From: a virus
IMG/VR virus record: IMGVR_UViG_3300012931_000002
Location: 1-64,000 of that record
Length of the DNA: 64,000 nucleotides
Reading direction: 5' to 3' (one strand)
Shown: piece by piece, positions 47,610-56,835 of the stretch
Layout: each line of letters starts with the position of its first letter
Position numbering within the stretch: position 1 is the stretch's first letter
Program-made: the position numbers and the translations under genes
Notes under the pieces: generated by a model
Told to the model about the DNA's origin: nothing
The model's database searches: none
Seen by the model: only the letters and a program-made list of their open reading frames with translations

Positions 47610-48404
47610 TCAGCCCTCCGATTCGCCATCGACTTTACTCTTCCTTTCCGGGAAAAGTAAAGGCGCGAATTCGTTCTCGATGGCTTTGGCTCGCGCTGCG
47701 AAGGATTCGATTCCTTTGAGGACGTTCTTTAGGCCGTTAAACCCATTTCCGGCGAATCCGAGTTCGACGACGACCTCGATGGCGCGGACGATCTGCGCTT
47801 CGGAAAGGTCGCCTAGTCCGCCGTAAGACTTGATCGCCCGCGCGAACGCTTCGTGCTTCTTCATGATTTCGTTCGACGACGCTAATCGCTGCGCGATCGA
47901 GCGCTCCGATCGTTCTTCGATCTTCTTACGCTCCGCTTCGACGCGAGCCGCGATGATCGATTCCATCATCCGTTCGTCGCGTCCGGCGGAAGCTCTAGCT
48001 AGGCTCGCGAAGAAGGAGCGGTCGACGACCGAAGCTTCCCGCTTGTCGGGTGCTTTTTTCTGGCAGACTTTGCCGTCGTCGACTTCGAAGAGGCCCCAAC
48101 CTACCGGCAATTCCTTCGGATCGATCAAGCCCTTCGGGGCCGCGATCAACCAGAAATCACAGAAACGCGCGATCGCTTCGGCCTTCGCCGGATCGGCGAG
48201 TTCGCGCTTGAAATCCCCACGCGACACCTTGATTTCGAATCCGAAGATCGCGAGCCCGCGGGAAGGCCACAGGTTCATGGCGACCGCGTCCGCATGCCGC
48301 CGCGCGGCTGCCCCCGTTCCGTCGGAAACTTCGAAGAACAGCGCCCATTCCGGCGCCTTATACGCTTCCGCGAGCGCGGCCTTGATTTCGGAGGAAGTCG
48401 TCAT
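47610..48404 (-). CDS. MmcB-like PD-(D/E)XK-fold protein
   Basis: A 264-residue protein. The first 130 residues read WALFFEVSDGTGAAARRHAD, then AVAMNLWPSRGLAIFGFEIK and VSRGDFKRELADPAKAEAIA, matching MmcB-type DNA repair proteins common in phages. Acidic D, then ExK (FEIKVSR), fits a PD-(D/E)XK core. The C-terminal half is coiled coil. Follows the helicase gene by 2 bases. Confidence 0.65.
   Translation of the reverse strand: MTTSSEIKAALAEAYKAPEWALFFEVSDGTGAAARRHADAVAMNLWPSRGLAIFGFEIKVSRGDFKRELADPAKAEAIARFCDFWLIAAPKGLIDPKELPVGWGLFEVDDGKVCQKKAPDKREASVVDRSFFASLARASAGRDERMMESIIAARVEAERKKIEERSERSIAQRLASSNEIMKKHEAFARAIKSYGGLGDLSEAQIVRAIEVVVELGFAGNGFNGLKNVLKGIESFAARAKAIENEFAPLLFPERKSKVDGESEG
47632..47662 (-). 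promoter_or_regulatory. Phage promoter-like box, copy 4
   Basis: CTTTACTTTTCC (47651-47662, minus strand) with TTTACT, an 18-base spacer and TAAAGT, about 30 bases before the GTG of the next gene. It overlaps the last codons of the MmcB-like gene; the flanks form a CTTTACT/AGTAAAG inverted repeat. Confidence 0.5.
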
Positions 48405-48406
48405 CG

Positions 48407-49876
48407 TCAAATCCTGAACCCGTAAGCCCCGCTCGGGGCGATCAGCGCGATTCCTTCCGAACAGCGCGTCAGCCCGACGTAGAAGGTCCGCGTCTCCGAA
48501 TCGGGGTCGAGTTCGTAACCTCGGCTCGTCCGGTACGTCATGTCGGTCGAAAGAAGGACGCGCCGCGCTTCGGCGCCCTTGCTCCCGTGAATCGTTTCGA
48601 CGCGGACGCGCGGCGGATCGGTCAACTTTCCCCCGCGCCGCATGATCGAAAGGTAGTATTCCCGCGCGTCGATCGAAATCCCCGTCAGCGCGTCGTGCCA
48701 TATCTTCGAAGCGTCGTAGCCGAGGCCCTTCGCGGTCCGCGTTTCTCCGCCGCCGGGGAACAGCTCGACGCCCGCCGCCTTTTCGAGGAACGGAACCTCC
48801 GCCGCTTCGATCGATCGCCCGGCGCGGAGCGCCTCGTGCGCCTTGATCGCGCGGACGTCGTCCCACTTCACCGAAGACTCGCCCTTGATCGAATACGCGA
48901 CCCCCTGCCTCCGCGCAGCCGCCGCGAGCGCCGGAAGCTGCGCGCGGGTTCGCGCGAGGAGGAGCCATTCGTCGTTCGCGAGGTCGACTTCGTCCGGCCC
49001 GGCGACCCAGTCGACCGATCCTTCGCGATCCGACGAAGACCATTCGCGCTCGTAGCGCCTTTCGATCCGGTCCCCGACCTCCTTCGCGAGTTCGAACGGC
49101 AAGCGCGGAAGGCGATGGGACAGGGGAAGGACCTCGACGGCGAAGCCCTCGCGTTCGAGGCCGAGGAAGCGGTCTTCGTCGGCCCCAGCCCAATGAAAGA
49201 TTTGTTGCATATCGTCTCCACCGACGACGAGTTCCGCCGCGCGCGCGAACGCGTGATTGACGACGGCCCACTGCGCGCGCGAAAGGTCCTGCGCCTCGTC
49301 GACGACGGCGAGTTCCAAATCGAGAGGCGGCAGCGACGATCGCGCGTAGAGTGTTAGCATGTCCGTAAAGTCGACGACGTCTTCGTCGGCCTTGTAGGCT
49401 TCGTACGCGCGCGAGAAGCGGAGGAGGCGAAACCATTCGAGTTCGGAGCCGTGGTTCGACCACGCGTCGGCGAGGCTCTGCCCGGTCGTCCGCGCGTAGT
49501 GGTCGAGGGTGAGCAGAGGATCGGCCGAACGCCCCGCCACCGGCGCGTCGGAGAACGGGCTTTCGAGGGTCGTCAGAAGCTCTCCCGTGACTTCGGAGAC
49601 CTTGTCGAGGTGATCGTCGTCGAGGACGCGACCCTTCGAAAGCCCTAACTCGCGGAAGGCGAGGGAATGAACGGTGCGGAAGTGCGGAAAGTCGTCGGGC
49701 TCACGCCCGAACTCCTCGACGGCGCGCCGAATCGCCTCGTTGACGGCGCCGCGCGTGAACGAGACGAAGGCGATCTTGTCGGGCTTTACGCCGCGGGCCA
49801 AAGCGCCGTGGACGATCTTGAGGAGTCGCTCGGTCTTTCCCGAACCCGGCCCCCCGAGCACTAGCGTCCTGCGCAT
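48407..49876 (-). CDS. UvrD/Dda-type SF1 helicase
   Basis: A 489-residue helicase distinct from the one at 33147. Motifs: LVLGGPGSGKTERL (Walker A near the N-terminus), FVSFTRGAVNEA (Ia), AVVDEAQDLSRAQW (II), VGGDDMQQIFHWAGA (III), PLSHRLP (IV), VETIHGSKGAEARRV (V) and RTFYVGLTRCSEGIAL (VI). The start is the ATG with GGAGGAAG upstream; a longer frame reading into the preceding gene is rejected. Confidence 0.85.
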   Translation of the reverse strand: MRRTLVLGGPGSGKTERLLKIVHGALARGVKPDKIAFVSFTRGAVNEAIRRAVEEFGREPDDFPHFRTVHSLAFRELGLSKGRVLDDDHLDKVSEVTGELLTTLESPFSDAPVAGRSADPLLTLDHYARTTGQSLADAWSNHGSELEWFRLLRFSRAYEAYKADEDVVDFTDMLTLYARSSLPPLDLELAVVDEAQDLSRAQWAVVNHAFARAAELVVGGDDMQQIFHWAGADEDRFLGLEREGFAVEVLPLSHRLPRLPFELAKEVGDRIERRYEREWSSSDREGSVDWVAGPDEVDLANDEWLLLARTRAQLPALAAAARRQGVAYSIKGESSVKWDDVRAIKAHEALRAGRSIEAAEVPFLEKAAGVELFPGGGETRTAKGLGYDASKIWHDALTGISIDAREYYLSIMRRGGKLTDPPRVRVETIHGSKGAEARRVLLSTDMTYRTSRGYELDPDSETRTFYVGLTRCSEGIALIAPSGAYGFRI

Positions 49877-50865
49877 CGCGCTTCCTCCGCCGCGAGGATG
49901 AATTCGGCGGCGAGCCACGGGTTTATCGCGTTGCCAGCGCCCCTGAGCAAGCCCACGCGGTTGCGAATGGTCCCAGCATCAACCAAAGGGAAAATGCCGG
50001 GTTCAATACGCCGTGCCTTTCCGTCGGCGCAAGGAACGAAGACGCCTGCGCCCCAAGGGGCTTCCCGCGCGAGTGCGCCCACCGTTTTTCGTCGTACGCC
50101 TTCGTCGCGCTTTCGCTTCTCCAGTCCCGTGCGCAGGGGGTCGCCCAGCCCGCTAGTTGCGCGAAGTCCCGTAGGTCGTTCGCGTGTGGCCCTATCGCCC
50201 GCGCAAGCGCTTTCATCGGGTCCTTGTATTCGCCCCCTGCTTTGATCTTCGCGTACGGCGTCGGCCACCCCGCCACGAGCGCTACCGTCTTTCTTCCGTT
50301 GTCCGTATTCCCCGCTTCGTTGTAGCCCTTCCGCGCCGGCGTTCCGGCCATCGGCGTAGGCCACCCAGTGTAGTCTTTGGCGGATGTGCGGCGCGCCGAC
50401 GCCCGCAGAGCAAAGATCGGCGGCCCCGAAATCATACCCCATTCCTTCAAGGTCAGTTCGTACTCCGGCGAGCCAAAGGCGGCCATCCTTGCTCGCAACT
50501 TGCTCGCCAAAGATCGCTGGAACATTTCCGATTCGGCGCTTTCGCTCGGCGACGATCCTTCGGAATTCCGGCCATAGGTGTCTTTCGTCATCGACGCCTT
50601 TTCGATTTCCGGCCGCCGAGAACGGTTGACAGGGGCAAGACCCCGTCCAGACTTCTTCGTCTTCGGGCCATCCGGCGATTCGCAATGCGAGGGACCAGCC
50701 ACCAATTCCCGCGAAGAAGTGACACTGAGCGAAGCCTTCGAGGTCTTTCGCGCGAACTTCTTTGATCGAACGCTCATCTACTTTTCCTTTCGGGATCAAT
50801 CCGTCTTCGATCAGCGCGCGAAGCCACGACGCCGCGAACTTGTCGTTTTCGTTGTAGTAATTCAT
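49861..50865 (-). CDS. dcm: C5-cytosine DNA methyltransferase with overlapping second frame
   Basis: A 334-residue enzyme. CHFFAGIGGWSLALRIAGWP (motif I), WTGSCPCQPFSAAGNRKG (IV), FGEQVASKDG (VI, EQV in place of ENV), GAPHIRQRLHWVAYA (VIII) and LLRGAGNAINPWLAAEFI (X) are present. Between VIII and X lies a long low-complexity region (ADGRNAGAEGLQRSGEYGQR and on) that is also open in the +1 frame. Start set by the 4-base overlap with the upstream stop. Confidence 0.8.
   Translation of the reverse strand: MNYYNENDKFAASWLRALIEDGLIPKGKVDERSIKEVRAKDLEGFAQCHFFAGIGGWSLALRIAGWPEDEEVWTGSCPCQPFSAAGNRKGVDDERHLWPEFRRIVAERKRRIGNVPAIFGEQVASKDGRLWLAGVRTDLEGMGYDFGAADLCSAGVGAPHIRQRLHWVAYADGRNAGAEGLQRSGEYGQRKKDGSARGGVADAVREDQSRGRIQGPDESACAGDRATRERPTGLRATSGLGDPLRTGLEKRKRDEGVRRKTVGALAREAPWGAGVFVPCADGKARRIEPGIFPLVDAGTIRNRVGLLRGAGNAINPWLAAEFILAAEEARCAGR
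49923..50777 (-). other. Protein-like ORF overprinted on the methyltransferase (+1 frame)
   Basis: A 284-codon ORF lies wholly inside the methyltransferase gene in the +1 frame. Unlike ordinary shadow frames it reads as a known kind of protein: SLASKLRARMAAFGSPEYEL with TLKEWG, ARRTSAKDYTGWPTPMAGTP, GYNEAGNTDNGRKTVALVAG, two more GWxTP turns and a closing GVLNPAFSLWLM ending WACSG. GWPTP repeats and LNPxFSxWLMG endings occur in methyltransferase-linked phage proteins. It may be a real overlapping gene or a frame whose product is annotated by habit. Confidence 0.4.
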
Positions 50866-51254
50866 ATGAGCGCCTCGTACCATCCGTCGGCGCGCTCGAC
50901 CAAAGCCCCGGCGGCGACGAGTTCGTCTAAGCCCTTCCGAAGGCTCCGCCGCAATATTCCGGCATTCGCCGCGAGTTTGCTAGGAAGGACGTCCGACTTC
51001 GCGGCCTTGACGGCGTTAAGCAACCGCCGCTGCTCGTCCGACAACCTCGCCGGGCGCTCCTTGAGCCGCCATTCGCCCGAAGCCGTCTTGACGACCCGCC
51101 CGGCGCTTTTGAGGTCGTAGAGGACGCCGGTAACGACGCCGAAGCGCGCGTTTAGCCGCTTCGCAACGTCCATCGTCGAAAGATAGGGCAGCGGGGCGGC
51201 GGGCGACGGCGGCGCGAGCGTTGCGAGTATCCGGCAGGCAAAGGCGGTTAGCAT
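50862..51254 (-). CDS. Winged-helix DNA-binding protein
   Basis: A 130-residue protein with two winged-helix-like units: LSTMDVAKRLNARFGVVTGV with LYDLKSAGRVVK, and LSDEQRRLLNAVKAAKSDVL with LRRSLRKGLDELVAAGALVE. Each ends in a short wing (SGEWRLK, ADGWYEA). Probable transcription regulator. Overlaps its neighbours. Confidence 0.6.
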   Translation of the reverse strand: MLTAFACRILATLAPPSPAAPLPYLSTMDVAKRLNARFGVVTGVLYDLKSAGRVVKTASGEWRLKERPARLSDEQRRLLNAVKAAKSDVLPSKLAANAGILRRSLRKGLDELVAAGALVERADGWYEALI

Positions 51255-51418
51255 AGTTCGAGCATTCCTCTTAGGTTATCCGCTGCCCTAGCGAGGTCGG
51301 AGGCGGCGGCTTCGACGACCGACCGCCTTATCCGCTTGAGGACGAGCATGGCGACCAACGACCCCGCTACGCGGAGGACGCGGGTCGTTTCAGCGTCGAG
51401 GATCGCGGCGGGGCTCAA
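51248..51418 (-). CDS. Small helical protein
   Basis: A 56-residue protein (LSPAAILDAETTRVLRVAGS, then VVEAAASDLARAADNLRG). TTG start with GGAAGGA upstream, overlapping the reductase stop (TTGA); its stop overlaps the next ATG by a few bases in another frame. May be a short amphipathic or membrane-linked protein. Unknown. Confidence 0.5.
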   Translation of the reverse strand: MSPAAILDAETTRVLRVAGSLVAMLVLKRIRRSVVEAAASDLARAADNLRGMLELC

Positions 51419-53142
51419 GCGCAGTCCTTCCGACCCGTCTCGGGATCGATAGCGCAGGTTCCGCCTTCGCCTTCGTTCTTCGGGCTTTCCGCGACGAGAA
51501 GCGCCATACGGGAACCGTCGGCGTTAAAGGTTGTACACCCCTTGCCGCCGCCCTCGTAAACGCGCCGATAGATTCCAGTAAAGTCGTCCCAGGGGGTCTT
51601 CTTCGTGACGTTGACCGTTTTCGAGACGGCAGAGTCGACGTAGCGCTGGGCGGTTACGAGGACTGCGACGTGCTCGTCCGGCGTTACGTCAGCCGCGAGC
51701 TTACCCCGAACGCCGAGGAACTCCGAGCCGTAATCGCCGATCGTAGATACGACCGGCCCGTCCGGAGCATTGATCGTCCGCTTCGTCGCGTAGGCGAAGA
51801 CCGGCTCGATTCCAGAGCTTACGTTATCGGCGCAGAGGGAGATAGTCCCCGTCGGAGCAATTGAGGTAAGGTGACTATTGCGAATGCCGTCGCGCGCGAT
51901 CGCGTCGCGAACGTCTTCCGGGAGCGTCTTGACGAATTCGCCTTCGAGATACTTCGTCCTATCGAGCATCGGGAACGATCCCTTCTCCTTCGCGAGCACC
52001 GTCGACGCGCGGTAGGTCTCGTCGCGAATCGCTTCGAGGATTTGTGCTTCGAGCGCGAGGAAGCCGGAAGAGCCGTAATCGTGGCCGCAGGATTCGAGCG
52101 CGTTCGCGAGTCCGGTAACGCCGAGACCCATACGCCGCTTCGCGAGCGCCTCCGCCTTCTGCGCCGGAAGCGGATAGTTCGTACGGTCGGTGACGTTGTC
52201 CATCGCGCGGACGATCGTCGGAACGTCGGAGCGGAGTTGGTCGAAGTCGAAGTAGTATTCATCACTATCTGCGGAAGGGTCCACCAGCTTCTTCCGCAGA
52301 TACTGAACGAGGTTAAACGACCCGAGCAAGCACGCGCCGTACGGAGGGAGTGGCTGTTCGCCACATGGGTTCGTAGCCGCGATCGTCTCGCAGTACCAAA
52401 GGTTGTTCATCCTATTGACGGTGTCGATAAATAACACTCCTGGTTCGGCATAATCCCAGGTACTTCGCATGATCTTTTCCCAAAGATCGACGGCGCGGAT
52501 TTCACGGTAGGTCGTTCCTCCAAAAGAGAGAGGAAAGAGGGAGTCGTTCGCGACGGCTTCCATGAACTTGTCCGTTACCGCGACCGACACGTTGAATCCT
52601 TCGAGCGCGCCCTTCTTCTTCTTCGCGTTCACGAAGACCTCGACGTCGGGATGATCGACGCGGAGGACCGCCATCTGCGCTCCCCGGCGGTGGCCGGAAG
52701 ACGCGACGCCGAGCCCGACGGTGTTGAAGTACTCCATGAACGAGACCGGCCCCGTCGCGTAGGTCTCGATCTTCTTTACGCGGTCGCCATGCGGGCGGAT
52801 CGTCGAGAAGTCGTAGCCGATTCCGCCGCCGAGCTTCGAAGTCGCGGCGGCTTCGAGGAGGCGCATCATGATACTTCCGTCGCCTTCGACGAGCGAATCC
52901 TCGATCGTTCCCGATACCATGCAGTTAAAGGCAGTAGTCTGCCGCGTTGCCCCGATCGCCCCCTGTATTCTCCCGCCGGGAAGAAAGCGCTGCGCAAGGC
53001 AGACGTCACGGATCGCGTGATAGTGATGTCCATCGTCCGCGAGCCCGAAGGCGAAGCGGTTTACCGATTCTTCAAAGTCCTCGCCGGGCGAGCGGTACTT
53101 CATCGCGTGTAGGCTATCGGCGGCTTCCGTTCTGGGGGTCAT
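51415..53142 (-). CDS. nrdJ: Class II (B12-dependent) ribonucleotide reductase
   Basis: A 575-residue reductase that makes dNTPs without oxygen-dependent radical subunits. Seen are FNCMVSGTIEDSLVEG (redox/first active Cys), KLGGGIGYDFSTIRPHG, ATNPCGEQPLPPYGACLLGS (thiyl radical Cys and Glu) and SIAPTGTISLCADNVSSGIE (substrate site). No N-terminal ATP cone is present, as in short phage NrdJ, and the end has an accessory Cys-rich tail. It needs adenosylcobalamin from the host. No NrdB-type gene is nearby, supporting class II. Confidence 0.85.
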   Translation of the reverse strand: MTPRTEAADSLHAMKYRSPGEDFEESVNRFAFGLADDGHHYHAIRDVCLAQRFLPGGRIQGAIGATRQTTAFNCMVSGTIEDSLVEGDGSIMMRLLEAAATSKLGGGIGYDFSTIRPHGDRVKKIETYATGPVSFMEYFNTVGLGVASSGHRRGAQMAVLRVDHPDVEVFVNAKKKKGALEGFNVSVAVTDKFMEAVANDSLFPLSFGGTTYREIRAVDLWEKIMRSTWDYAEPGVLFIDTVNRMNNLWYCETIAATNPCGEQPLPPYGACLLGSFNLVQYLRKKLVDPSADSDEYYFDFDQLRSDVPTIVRAMDNVTDRTNYPLPAQKAEALAKRRMGLGVTGLANALESCGHDYGSSGFLALEAQILEAIRDETYRASTVLAKEKGSFPMLDRTKYLEGEFVKTLPEDVRDAIARDGIRNSHLTSIAPTGTISLCADNVSSGIEPVFAYATKRTINAPDGPVVSTIGDYGSEFLGVRGKLAADVTPDEHVAVLVTAQRYVDSAVSKTVNVTKKTPWDDFTGIYRRVYEGGGKGCTTFNADGSRMALLVAESPKNEGEGGTCAIDPETGRKDCA

Positions 53143-53981
53143 TTCGGTCCTAACTCCTTCGTAAATAGCTTCGTCAATTCTTCGGAATACGCAAGGACAT
53201 ACGACGTATGATTATAGTGCTTCGCCTTCTCGGCTCGCGCCCAAAGGTTCCGAACGCCTACGGTCGAAACCGCGGCGAGAACTCCGGCGGAATCCTTCGC
53301 CCACTTCGGCGCGTCCCAGAGGACCGCCGCCGTCGCCTTGATCAGGGGGCTCTTGAGCATGCTTGGGTTTCCGTCGCCGGTTTCGACGACCGTTCGGAGC
53401 GCGAGTTCGGTCGCGGCGTGGCCGTAGCGCTTGAACGTTGTCTCAATCGCGTCGATCGCGACAGTCTCTCCGCGAAGATAGTTCTTCGCCGCCTTCGGCG
53501 TCTTGAGAACGCGAACGCCGACGGCGTCTAGCATACGGGACAATAGGATCGCGTCGTAATCTCCTGCGACGACGCGCGCAGCCCAAATCTGGGTTGGTAA
53601 TATTGCCGTAACCGCGCCATTGATTACCGCGAACGCCTTCGCTTCGTCGCTCGGGGACCCGTTGATAATCAGCGCCGGGACCTTCTCGATTCCGCCGTGC
53701 GTAAGCGCGGCTATTGCGCGGTGCTGTCCGTCAATAACCGCGAACCGCCCGCCTTGTCGCCGCGCGACAACAACCGGGGAAAAGAGCGCCCACGAGAAGT
53801 TCTCGATAACCTGCCGAATGTTCTTTTCGCCGCGGTCGTTGATCGGGCGCTGATATTTCGGATCGATAAAGAGGTCCGAGACAGGAACCCAGGCAAGTTC
53901 ACCGACGGCGTCCGTAGGCGCGGGATTCGGAAAGGGTGGTGCGAACGCGATTTCGGAAAGCGGCAAAAGGTCGTCGGTCAT
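53139..53981 (-). CDS. ParB/Srx-fold protein
   Basis: A 280-residue protein with LAWVPVSDLFIDPKYQRPIN, then FSPVVVARRQGGRFAVIDGQ and HRAIAALTHGG, the ParB N-terminal (ParB/Srx) fold with the GQHR motif. The C-terminal part is helical. In phages such proteins may act as DNA-binding CTPases or nucleases in segregation or defence evasion. Start set by a 4-base overlap with the upstream regulator gene. Confidence 0.7.
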   Translation of the reverse strand: MTDDLLPLSEIAFAPPFPNPAPTDAVGELAWVPVSDLFIDPKYQRPINDRGEKNIRQVIENFSWALFSPVVVARRQGGRFAVIDGQHRAIAALTHGGIEKVPALIINGSPSDEAKAFAVINGAVTAILPTQIWAARVVAGDYDAILLSRMLDAVGVRVLKTPKAAKNYLRGETVAIDAIETTFKRYGHAATELALRTVVETGDGNPSMLKSPLIKATAAVLWDAPKWAKDSAGVLAAVSTVGVRNLWARAEKAKHYNHTSYVLAYSEELTKLFTKELGPK

Positions 53982-54337
53982 TCGGTTAGTTCCTTCATAG
54001 GCTCGACGAGGCGGTAACCGCGGCCCCATACCGTCGCGATTTCCAGCCCGAGCGGAATCAGCTTCTTTCTGAGATGGCAAACGTAGACGTCTACGATCTT
54101 CGTGCCGCTAGGAACGTCTTCTTCCGCCGCGACGAGCTGATACATGCGGTCGAATAGCGCATCCTTACTCGCTACCATACCAGCCTTGTCGAGGAGGAAT
54201 CGGAAAAGTTCGAATTCCGTCGACGTCAGGTTACGGATCATCTTTCCGCCGAAGCGGATTTCGCCACGATCGGAGTCGGCGACGATCCCGCCGTATTCGG
54301 GGAGTACTTGCCCGCAACAGGAGCAGCGCTTTTCCAT
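53978..54337 (-). CDS. OmpR/PhoB-type winged-helix regulator with CxxC start
   Basis: A 119-residue protein. KRCSCCGQVLP forms an N-terminal zinc knuckle; the rest is a trans-regulatory C domain: MIRNLTSTEFELFRFLLDKA, then KIVDVYVCHLRKKLIPLGLE and IATVWGRGYRL (the recognition helix and wing). No receiver domain is present, so activity would be constitutive or set by partners. Likely regulator of phage or host genes. Confidence 0.75.
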   Translation of the reverse strand: MEKRCSCCGQVLPEYGGIVADSDRGEIRFGGKMIRNLTSTEFELFRFLLDKAGMVASKDALFDRMYQLVAAEEDVPSGTKIVDVYVCHLRKKLIPLGLEIATVWGRGYRLVEPMKELTE

Positions 54338-55953: not shown

Positions 55954-56835
55954 TTAAACTTTATGATGAACCGGCGCGCTCGTCGTAAACCCGGCGGCGT
56001 TCTTATGGCCTCCGCCACCGAAGCTCTTCGCGACCGCGGAAACGTCAAAGTCACCGCGCGAGCGAAGCGAATACTGCCAGCGATCCGGAGCGACCTCGAA
56101 GTAACAAGCGCCGAAGTCCACCCCCTGGCCTTCGGCAAGTTCGCCTGCGACTTCGGACGCCGCGAAGTATGGTGCGTTAGCGATAGCAATCCTCGACGTA
56201 GCCGCGCTATCACCGCCGTCGTCCCATAAGATTACCGCGCGATACGCCGACCGTTTAAGTTCTTCGACGCGAAGGCGGTAGTAGCGCTGAATCGCTTTTC
56301 CTTCCGCGATCAGGGGGGCCGGACCGGAAGCGACGAGCGCGTCCCATATATAGAAGTCTTGTGGATACGAGCGGAGCGCGATCGTAAATTCATCTCCGCA
56401 AGGAAGTGCCTTTCGCCAGAGGTCGCGATCTTCGACGTAATCTATAAAATCCGGGCACGTAGAAGTCGGATGGAAGAAGGCCCAAGCGAGGCTCGCACCA
56501 CTACGGTTCATATCAAATAACGCGGCGGCGCCTTCGCCTTTTTCTGCCCATCTACCGAACGATCCTGGATTTGGTAGTCCCGCGAGGTCTTCCGCCGCCG
56601 TCTTATGGTGATCAAGGATAAGGACGGAAAGGGCAGCCTCCGCCATCATTTCGAGGACGGGCCGTTTATAGCTAAAGTCGACGAGGACGACGTGGCGACC
56701 GGCGACATCCGGCGGAGGATTACCGTAGACACCAGCGTAAAATTCGAACATATCCGGCGGCATCGCCGCGCGGAGAGCCCAGGCCGCCGCGAAGCCGTCG
56801 TCGCATCCGCCGTGGTATATACATAAAGGTTTCAT
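55954..56835 (-). CDS. DHH-DHHA1 family phosphoesterase
   Basis: A 293-residue phosphoesterase. CIYHGGCDDGFAAAWALRAA (motif I), VVLVDFSYKR (II), LSVLILDHHKTAAED (DHH motif III) and SFGGGGHKNAAGFTTSA (DHHA1 GGGH) are in order. Relatives degrade short RNAs, pApA-type nucleotides or ssDNA (RecJ-like). Substrate cannot be set from sequence. Located between primase and ssDNA-binding genes. Confidence 0.8.
   Translation of the reverse strand: MKPLCIYHGGCDDGFAAAWALRAAMPPDMFEFYAGVYGNPPPDVAGRHVVLVDFSYKRPVLEMMAEAALSVLILDHHKTAAEDLAGLPNPGSFGRWAEKGEGAAALFDMNRSGASLAWAFFHPTSTCPDFIDYVEDRDLWRKALPCGDEFTIALRSYPQDFYIWDALVASGPAPLIAEGKAIQRYYRLRVEELKRSAYRAVILWDDGGDSAATSRIAIANAPYFAASEVAGELAEGQGVDFGACYFEVAPDRWQYSLRSRGDFDVSAVAKSFGGGGHKNAAGFTTSAPVHHKV

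Follow-up and report, generated by a model that had tools for sequence, protein, structure and literature searches.

Overlapping reading frames in a phage cytosine methyltransferase locus and a putative second subunit for target recognition

Two overlapping frames at one locus

We analysed a 64,000-nucleotide stretch of DNA (hereafter the window), which forms part of a 67.7 kb IMG/VR virus record. A methyltransferase frame, termed alpha (M), lies on its minus strand. As listed, this open reading frame spans 49861-50883 (340 aa), but its likely start is the ATG at 50865 (MNYYNE...), where it has a 4-nt ATGA overlap with the stop codon of the upstream gene. An initial annotation of the same DNA had proposed a 284-codon frame at 49923-50777, in +1 relative to the methyltransferase, and we recovered this frame, termed beta (B), intact on the minus strand at exactly these coordinates. 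The GWPTP, GWPTP and GWATP turns and the LNPAFSLWLM...WACSG ending attributed to it were all found in the second frame. Two segments had been assigned to the main enzyme: GNAINPW is indeed read in the methyltransferase frame, whereas 'VEPGIFPL' had to be corrected to IEPGIFPL. The features of the two frames are as follows.

49861..50865, minus strand: alpha (M), C5-cytosine methyltransferase large subunit (Pfam DNA_methylase 2e-12, phrog_363 3e-68)
50698..50718, minus strand: alpha motif I, FFAGIGG, from sequence
50617..50640, minus strand: alpha motif IV, catalytic SCPCQPFS, from sequence
50497..50511, minus strand: alpha motif VI, FGEQV, from sequence
50362..50397, minus strand: alpha motif VIII, GAPHIRQRLHWV, from sequence
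50053..50307, minus strand: alpha residues 193-277, predicted disordered (pLDDT <50); translated and unconserved over the beta modules
49915..49941, minus strand: alpha motif X, GAGNAINPW, from sequence; the next helix has pLDDT ~95
49923..50777, minus strand: beta (B), the second protein; 284 aa from an intact, ATG-initiated +1 frame that lies wholly within alpha
50775..50805, minus strand: beta start, AAAGGAAAAGTAG-ATG, with a Shine-Dalgarno-like AAGGA upstream of the ATG at 50777
50382..50513, minus strand: beta conserved core, a helix plus a hairpin of two strands, sharing its DNA with alpha motifs VI-VIII (pLDDT 84-89)
50268..50363, minus strand: beta module 1, WPTPMAGTPARKGYNEAGNTDNGRKTVALVAG; recurs elsewhere in other phages with the beta frame conserved
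50148..50267, minus strand: beta module 2, WPTPYAKIKAGGEYKDPMKALARAIG..., a W-P-T-P repeat
50010..50147, minus strand: beta module 3, WATPCARDWRSESATKAYDEKRW..., a W-A-T-P repeat
49953..50009, minus strand: beta motif IX, VLNPAFSLWLMLGPFATAW, from a family profile of the segment; a slightly divergent copy

Alpha meets the criteria for a C5 methyltransferase, with motifs I, IV (PCQ), VI and VIII and an M.HhaI-like catalytic fold. Its family profile matches M.HhaI (1e-16), aligning only as far as motif VIII, and its predicted model matches the M.HhaI fold (4e-8). The model is confident at residues ~10-180 and 320-339 (the motif X helix) and disordered at residues 193-277 and 299-316 (pLDDT <50). 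As a complete single-chain enzyme alpha fails, with neither motif IX nor a folded target-recognition region found in the same chain.

Beta matches phrog_1008 (4e-19) and phrog_31772 (3e-9) and has no match in Pfam. Homologues of its frame were detected by tblastn in 109 phage records; when the window's beta sequence was used alone to scan viral contigs, no relatives emerged, and an alignment was needed to find them. The AlphaFold model of beta alone was poor (pLDDT 59, pTM 0.30) and gave no match in the PDB, a search that is meaningless with a model of such low confidence.

Neighbouring genes on the minus strand encode a ribonucleotide reductase large subunit (51415-53142), a ParB-like protein (53139-54080) and a DHH phosphoesterase (55954-56835). 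A 617-codon open reading frame at 47610-49463, also on the minus strand, matches a DNA repair protein family over its C-terminal ~200 residues (phrog_14517, 8e-51; phrog_5429), and its first ~350 codons overlap a helicase gene (48407-49918) in a different frame; the upstream part of this open reading frame is probably spurious.

Conservation and constraint of the second frame

The overlapping pair was present in 277 of 277 loci, of which 276 had the same +1 offset; in the lone exception (L262) the frames are disrupted by a poly-G run. These loci comprise viral contigs (found through B, the N-terminus of M or the peptide WPTPTARDWK), bacterial genomes (found through B), named phages and the window, with some contigs falling in more than one search set. 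M played no part in two of the searches: every match to WPTPTARDWK (32/32) had a methyltransferase in the -1 frame, as did all 80 of the 80 fetched matches to DNA encoding N-P-T-W-V-E-W-L-M-G-F-P (motif IX). Among these M-independent matches are many from a distant methyltransferase clade whose members end in EPDVGRVAHGVPNRVDRLKALGNAVVPQ. Loci found by the N-terminus of M likewise have M in the -1 frame relative to B.

The K1ind2 and PhiXhv-28 records label both frames 'DNA methyltransferase', and the BN12 record also has both, while those of epsilon15 and BcepC6B carry M only. The two-frame layout is shared by Paenibacillus BN12, Mycobacterium Rhynn, Microbacterium R1 and Pseudomonas phPA-G. 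In the record of Pseudomonas phage phPA-G (L284:1001-1729), beta alone is annotated, as a hypothetical protein, and the overlapping methyltransferase was missed. One contig also has, upstream of its main pair, an additional and more distant overlapping M/B pair (L051:497-1376). Intact copies of the arrangement occur in hundreds of phages and prophages that are unrelated to one another, usually with only one of the genes annotated. We found no description of the phage M/B overlap in the literature searched, which was limited to open-licence papers and is no proof of novelty.

Synonymous shuffling of the window's M produced a mean of 4.4 stops in the second frame, which was open in 0/300 shuffles. 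Across 78 loci, the same procedure predicted 338 stops in the B frame compared with 0 observed; the remaining frame of these loci contains 996 stops, and E. coli dcm, used as a yardstick, has 14 in the same relative frame. The comparison of 338 with 0 is partly conditioned on the search. More generally, the loci share phylogenetic history, which makes the shuffle-based figures descriptive rather than exact probabilities, and some loci were found via beta, which biases counts of openness; the constraint profile and the searches made with motif IX and with M are less affected.

Constraint on M was assessed from synonymous codon identity relative to expectation, which was ~1.0 at codons 1-48, 1.2 at codons 49-96, 1.9-2.2 at codons 109-168, 2.5 at codons 289-300 and 1.07 past the stop of B. 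The ratio of 1.9-2.2 coincides with beta residues ~80-130, the core modelled at pLDDT 84-89. On these figures, synonymous constraint on M tracks the conserved zones of beta and is absent outside them. Substitution rates by codon position, derived from 1282 pairs at 72-97% nucleotide identity, gave an M3/M1 ratio of 3.67 before B, 2.61 in the N-terminal part of B, 1.10 in the B core and modules, 1.30 in the motif IX zone and 1.69 after B. The rate tests excluded L019 and L060, whose frames are broken by indels, as well as near-duplicates, and L262, the closest genome match, was unusable as a close pair because its poly-G run breaks the frames.

The initial annotation had suggested true dual coding, to be refuted by stops or free substitutions in the second frame of close homologues. 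That test was run and did not refute it: virtually all homologues keep the frame open, and the fall of M3/M1 from 3.67 to ~1.1 within the overlap strongly supports dual coding. As far as sequence evidence alone can establish it, the 284-codon second frame is confirmed as a real coding sequence.

Beta, as predicted here, has its own independent start. An ATG is found at M codons 20-45 in 73 of the 78 loci (53.1±3.8 in shuffles), with a Shine-Dalgarno-like sequence at the beta start in 34 (14.5±3.5 in shuffles). Over M codons 36-100 the B frame contains 2 stops compared with 43.8 expected; its residues there are not conserved, though the frame stays open.

Partition of motifs and modules between the chains

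The motif IX pattern occurs in B in 229 of 277 loci and in M in 3, and the motif X pattern in M in 247 of 277 and in B in 2. All three loci with motif IX in the M frame (L172, its duplicate L179, and L221) read as indels. An (AC)n run in L172/L179 and a short G run in L221 shift motif IX in line with M, and the poly-G run in L262 does the same for B segments; sequencing slips and phase-variable tracts cannot be distinguished here. Pfam and PDB sequence profiles did not detect motif IX in beta, but a short position-specific profile did. Built from the C-terminal 18 residues of B, it selects exactly motif IX of M.HhaI (KLHPRECARVMGYPDSYK) and of E. coli Dcm (RLTPRECARLMGFEAPGE), with 4/2000 and 14/2000 shuffles, respectively, scoring as high. 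The motif absent from M therefore sits in B. The window's copy is slightly divergent (LMLGPFATAW versus LMGYPPEW).

The stretch from the B core to motif IX contains 1-5 units that open with W-P-T-P (458 units in 197 loci), and module 1 of the window is found at other positions in L030, L062, L021 and PhiXhv-28. We compared 445 module pairs picked by DNA similarity, a frame-neutral choice, 217 of which occupy different module positions. Identity between interior modules was 74% at the nucleotide level, 74% in B, 48% in M and 47% in the third frame, and substitutions clustered at the first codon position of M, equivalent to the third of B (5723 versus 2567 and 2141). In this zone M evolves in the manner of a non-coding frame. 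Because module identity is kept in B and not in M, the recognition-region zone is maintained in B, and M merely traverses it. We infer that the modules are target-recognition units, since they are placed between motifs VIII and IX and tandem recognition domains occur in Bacillus phage m5C methyltransferases (PMC8936443); their specificities were not measured. The initial annotation was right in linking the second frame to target recognition.

Two named phages depart from the window's layout. The gp76 gene of mycobacteriophage Rita carries modules, motif IX and motif X in M's own frame, giving a single chain that runs through motifs I-VIII, modules, IX and X, and a shortened +1 frame is retained. 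In Gordonia phage Jumbo, alpha (gp35) ends after motif VIII and the +1 frame continues alone through LPTP, IX and X, such that beta (which includes gp36) holds the core, LPTP, IX and X; B as predicted in Jumbo is plainly a protein of its own. Both layouts support a heterodimeric reading, insofar as gene layout can.

A proposed heterodimer and its relation to known systems

We interpret alpha and beta as the catalytic and recognition subunits, encoded on shared DNA, of one heterodimeric m5C methyltransferase (probability roughly 85%). The observations behind this reading are the dual coding, the partition of motifs, the independent start and the conservation of the modules in beta and not in alpha. 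One gene region would yield two proteins in overlapping frames. Alpha would be the large catalytic domain, with S-adenosylmethionine binding, the PCQ nucleophile and motifs I-VIII and X. Beta would be a small domain with its own ATG about 27-40 codons inside alpha, composed of a helix-hairpin core, 1-5 exchangeable W-P-T-P modules in the place of a recognition domain, and motif IX. By inference, both chains would be expressed, both would be needed, and they would assemble into one methyltransferase marking phage DNA at a target or targets chosen by the beta modules; the role of the modules as recognition units and the specificity of each for a target are inferred as well. Orphan phage methyltransferases usually serve to protect from host restriction, and the marking would most likely counter host restriction here. 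Several points count against the heterodimer, namely the poor model of beta alone, its lack of a Pfam match, the slightly divergent motif IX of the window and the published location of the predicted recognition domain of M.EcoHK31I in its large subunit (PMC3404938).

An alternative that accepts the dual coding holds that beta is a separate phage protein, such as a regulator, an anti-restriction protein or a DNA-binding factor, and that alpha works alone. We consider this unlikely. Although the poor folding of beta alone, its lack of a fold match and the absence of conservation in most of its N-terminal 73 residues would suit such a protein, motif IX is missing from alpha in 274 of the 277 loci and present in beta in 229, the module zone of alpha is disordered and unconstrained, and Rita fuses the modules, IX and X to the catalytic half.

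Less plausible still is programmed +1 frameshifting that would yield one chain with the catalytic N-terminus of M followed by the C-terminus of the second frame. The initial annotation had raised such a shift onto a different recognition domain, and we found it unsupported. The most conserved core of beta (M codons 101-168) lies on the DNA of motifs VI-VIII, and therefore no single frameshift product can contain both. The second frame is, moreover, open from codon 36 with its own ATG and enriched Shine-Dalgarno-like sites, and a fusion at motif VIII would be without motif X. These points stand against the constant +1 spacing of the frames, the indels that align motif IX with M in L172 and L221, and the in-frame motif IX of Rita, all of which a frameshift would accommodate.

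Finally, the idea that the second frame is a by-product of M codon bias and conservation is refuted on sequence grounds: high G+C (62%) lengthens spurious frames, and the N-terminal part of beta resembles its relatives simply because M does, but the 338 expected stops are missing from all 78 loci, beta is conserved within the modules where M is not, and Jumbo beta continues beyond the stop of M.

Beyond the single heterodimer, the balance tips slightly towards a broader proposal, in which the m5C methyltransferases of phages and prophages would include a very large, largely overlooked class that is obligatorily dual-coded, with catalysis in one frame and a plug-and-play, multi-module +1 recognition subunit whose modules are recombined by phages to change or add methylation targets, the first frame in that zone being a tolerated, disordered by-product. 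If the heterodimer reading is true, hundreds of phage genes labelled 'orphan cytosine methyltransferase' represent half an enzyme whose counterpart lies unnoticed in the adjacent frame, which would explain the apparent absence of motif IX and a recognition domain from these methyltransferases. Annotation tools that forbid long overlaps drop one member of the M/B pair. Few instances of extended dual coding on a single strand would be as widespread among double-stranded DNA phages as this one, and the two products would have clearly separate tasks; the recognition code of phage methyltransferases could then be tested one module at a time.

The beta family is already represented in databases, as beta matches PHROG 1008 and 31772 ('DNA methyltransferase'); these families carry the methyltransferase label yet are without any catalytic motif, and the overlap is not described there. 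Among characterized enzymes, the two-subunit M.AquI (CYCGRG) likewise has catalytic motifs I-VIII in one chain and recognition and motif IX in the other, a layout that Jumbo matches. Motif X is in the small subunit of M.AquI, however, whereas the window has it in the large subunit, as do 247 of the 277 loci overall; a split of the M.AquI type, which pairs IX with X in the small subunit, is absent from the window and was seen only in Jumbo.

M.EcoHK31I (YGGCCR) is an m5C methyltransferase made of two polypeptides (Lee, Kam & Shaw 1995; account in PMC3404938), in which the large subunit has motifs I-VIII and X, the smaller polypeptide has motif IX and the predicted recognition domain is placed in the large subunit. 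The phage pair resembles it in motif layout (alpha with I-VIII and X, beta with IX), a likeness for which we have no homology data, and differs in that the constrained, module-bearing recognition region lies in the small subunit and is conserved only in the beta frame. The two EcoHK31I genes are said to overlap in different frames, which would parallel the phage alpha and beta polypeptides from overlapping genes. EcoHK31I is part of a restriction-modification system, whereas M/B pairs are phage and prophage genes with a variable number of modules.

M.BatI from a Bacillus prophage is reported to be active as an m5C methyltransferase and to have an unusually short recognition region (PMC8936443). 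The modules themselves recall the multispecific methyltransferases of Bacillus phage H2 and the SPbeta group, in which several exchangeable recognition-like units lie between motifs VIII and IX; those enzymes are single chains read in one frame, whereas in M/B pairs the units are in a second frame.
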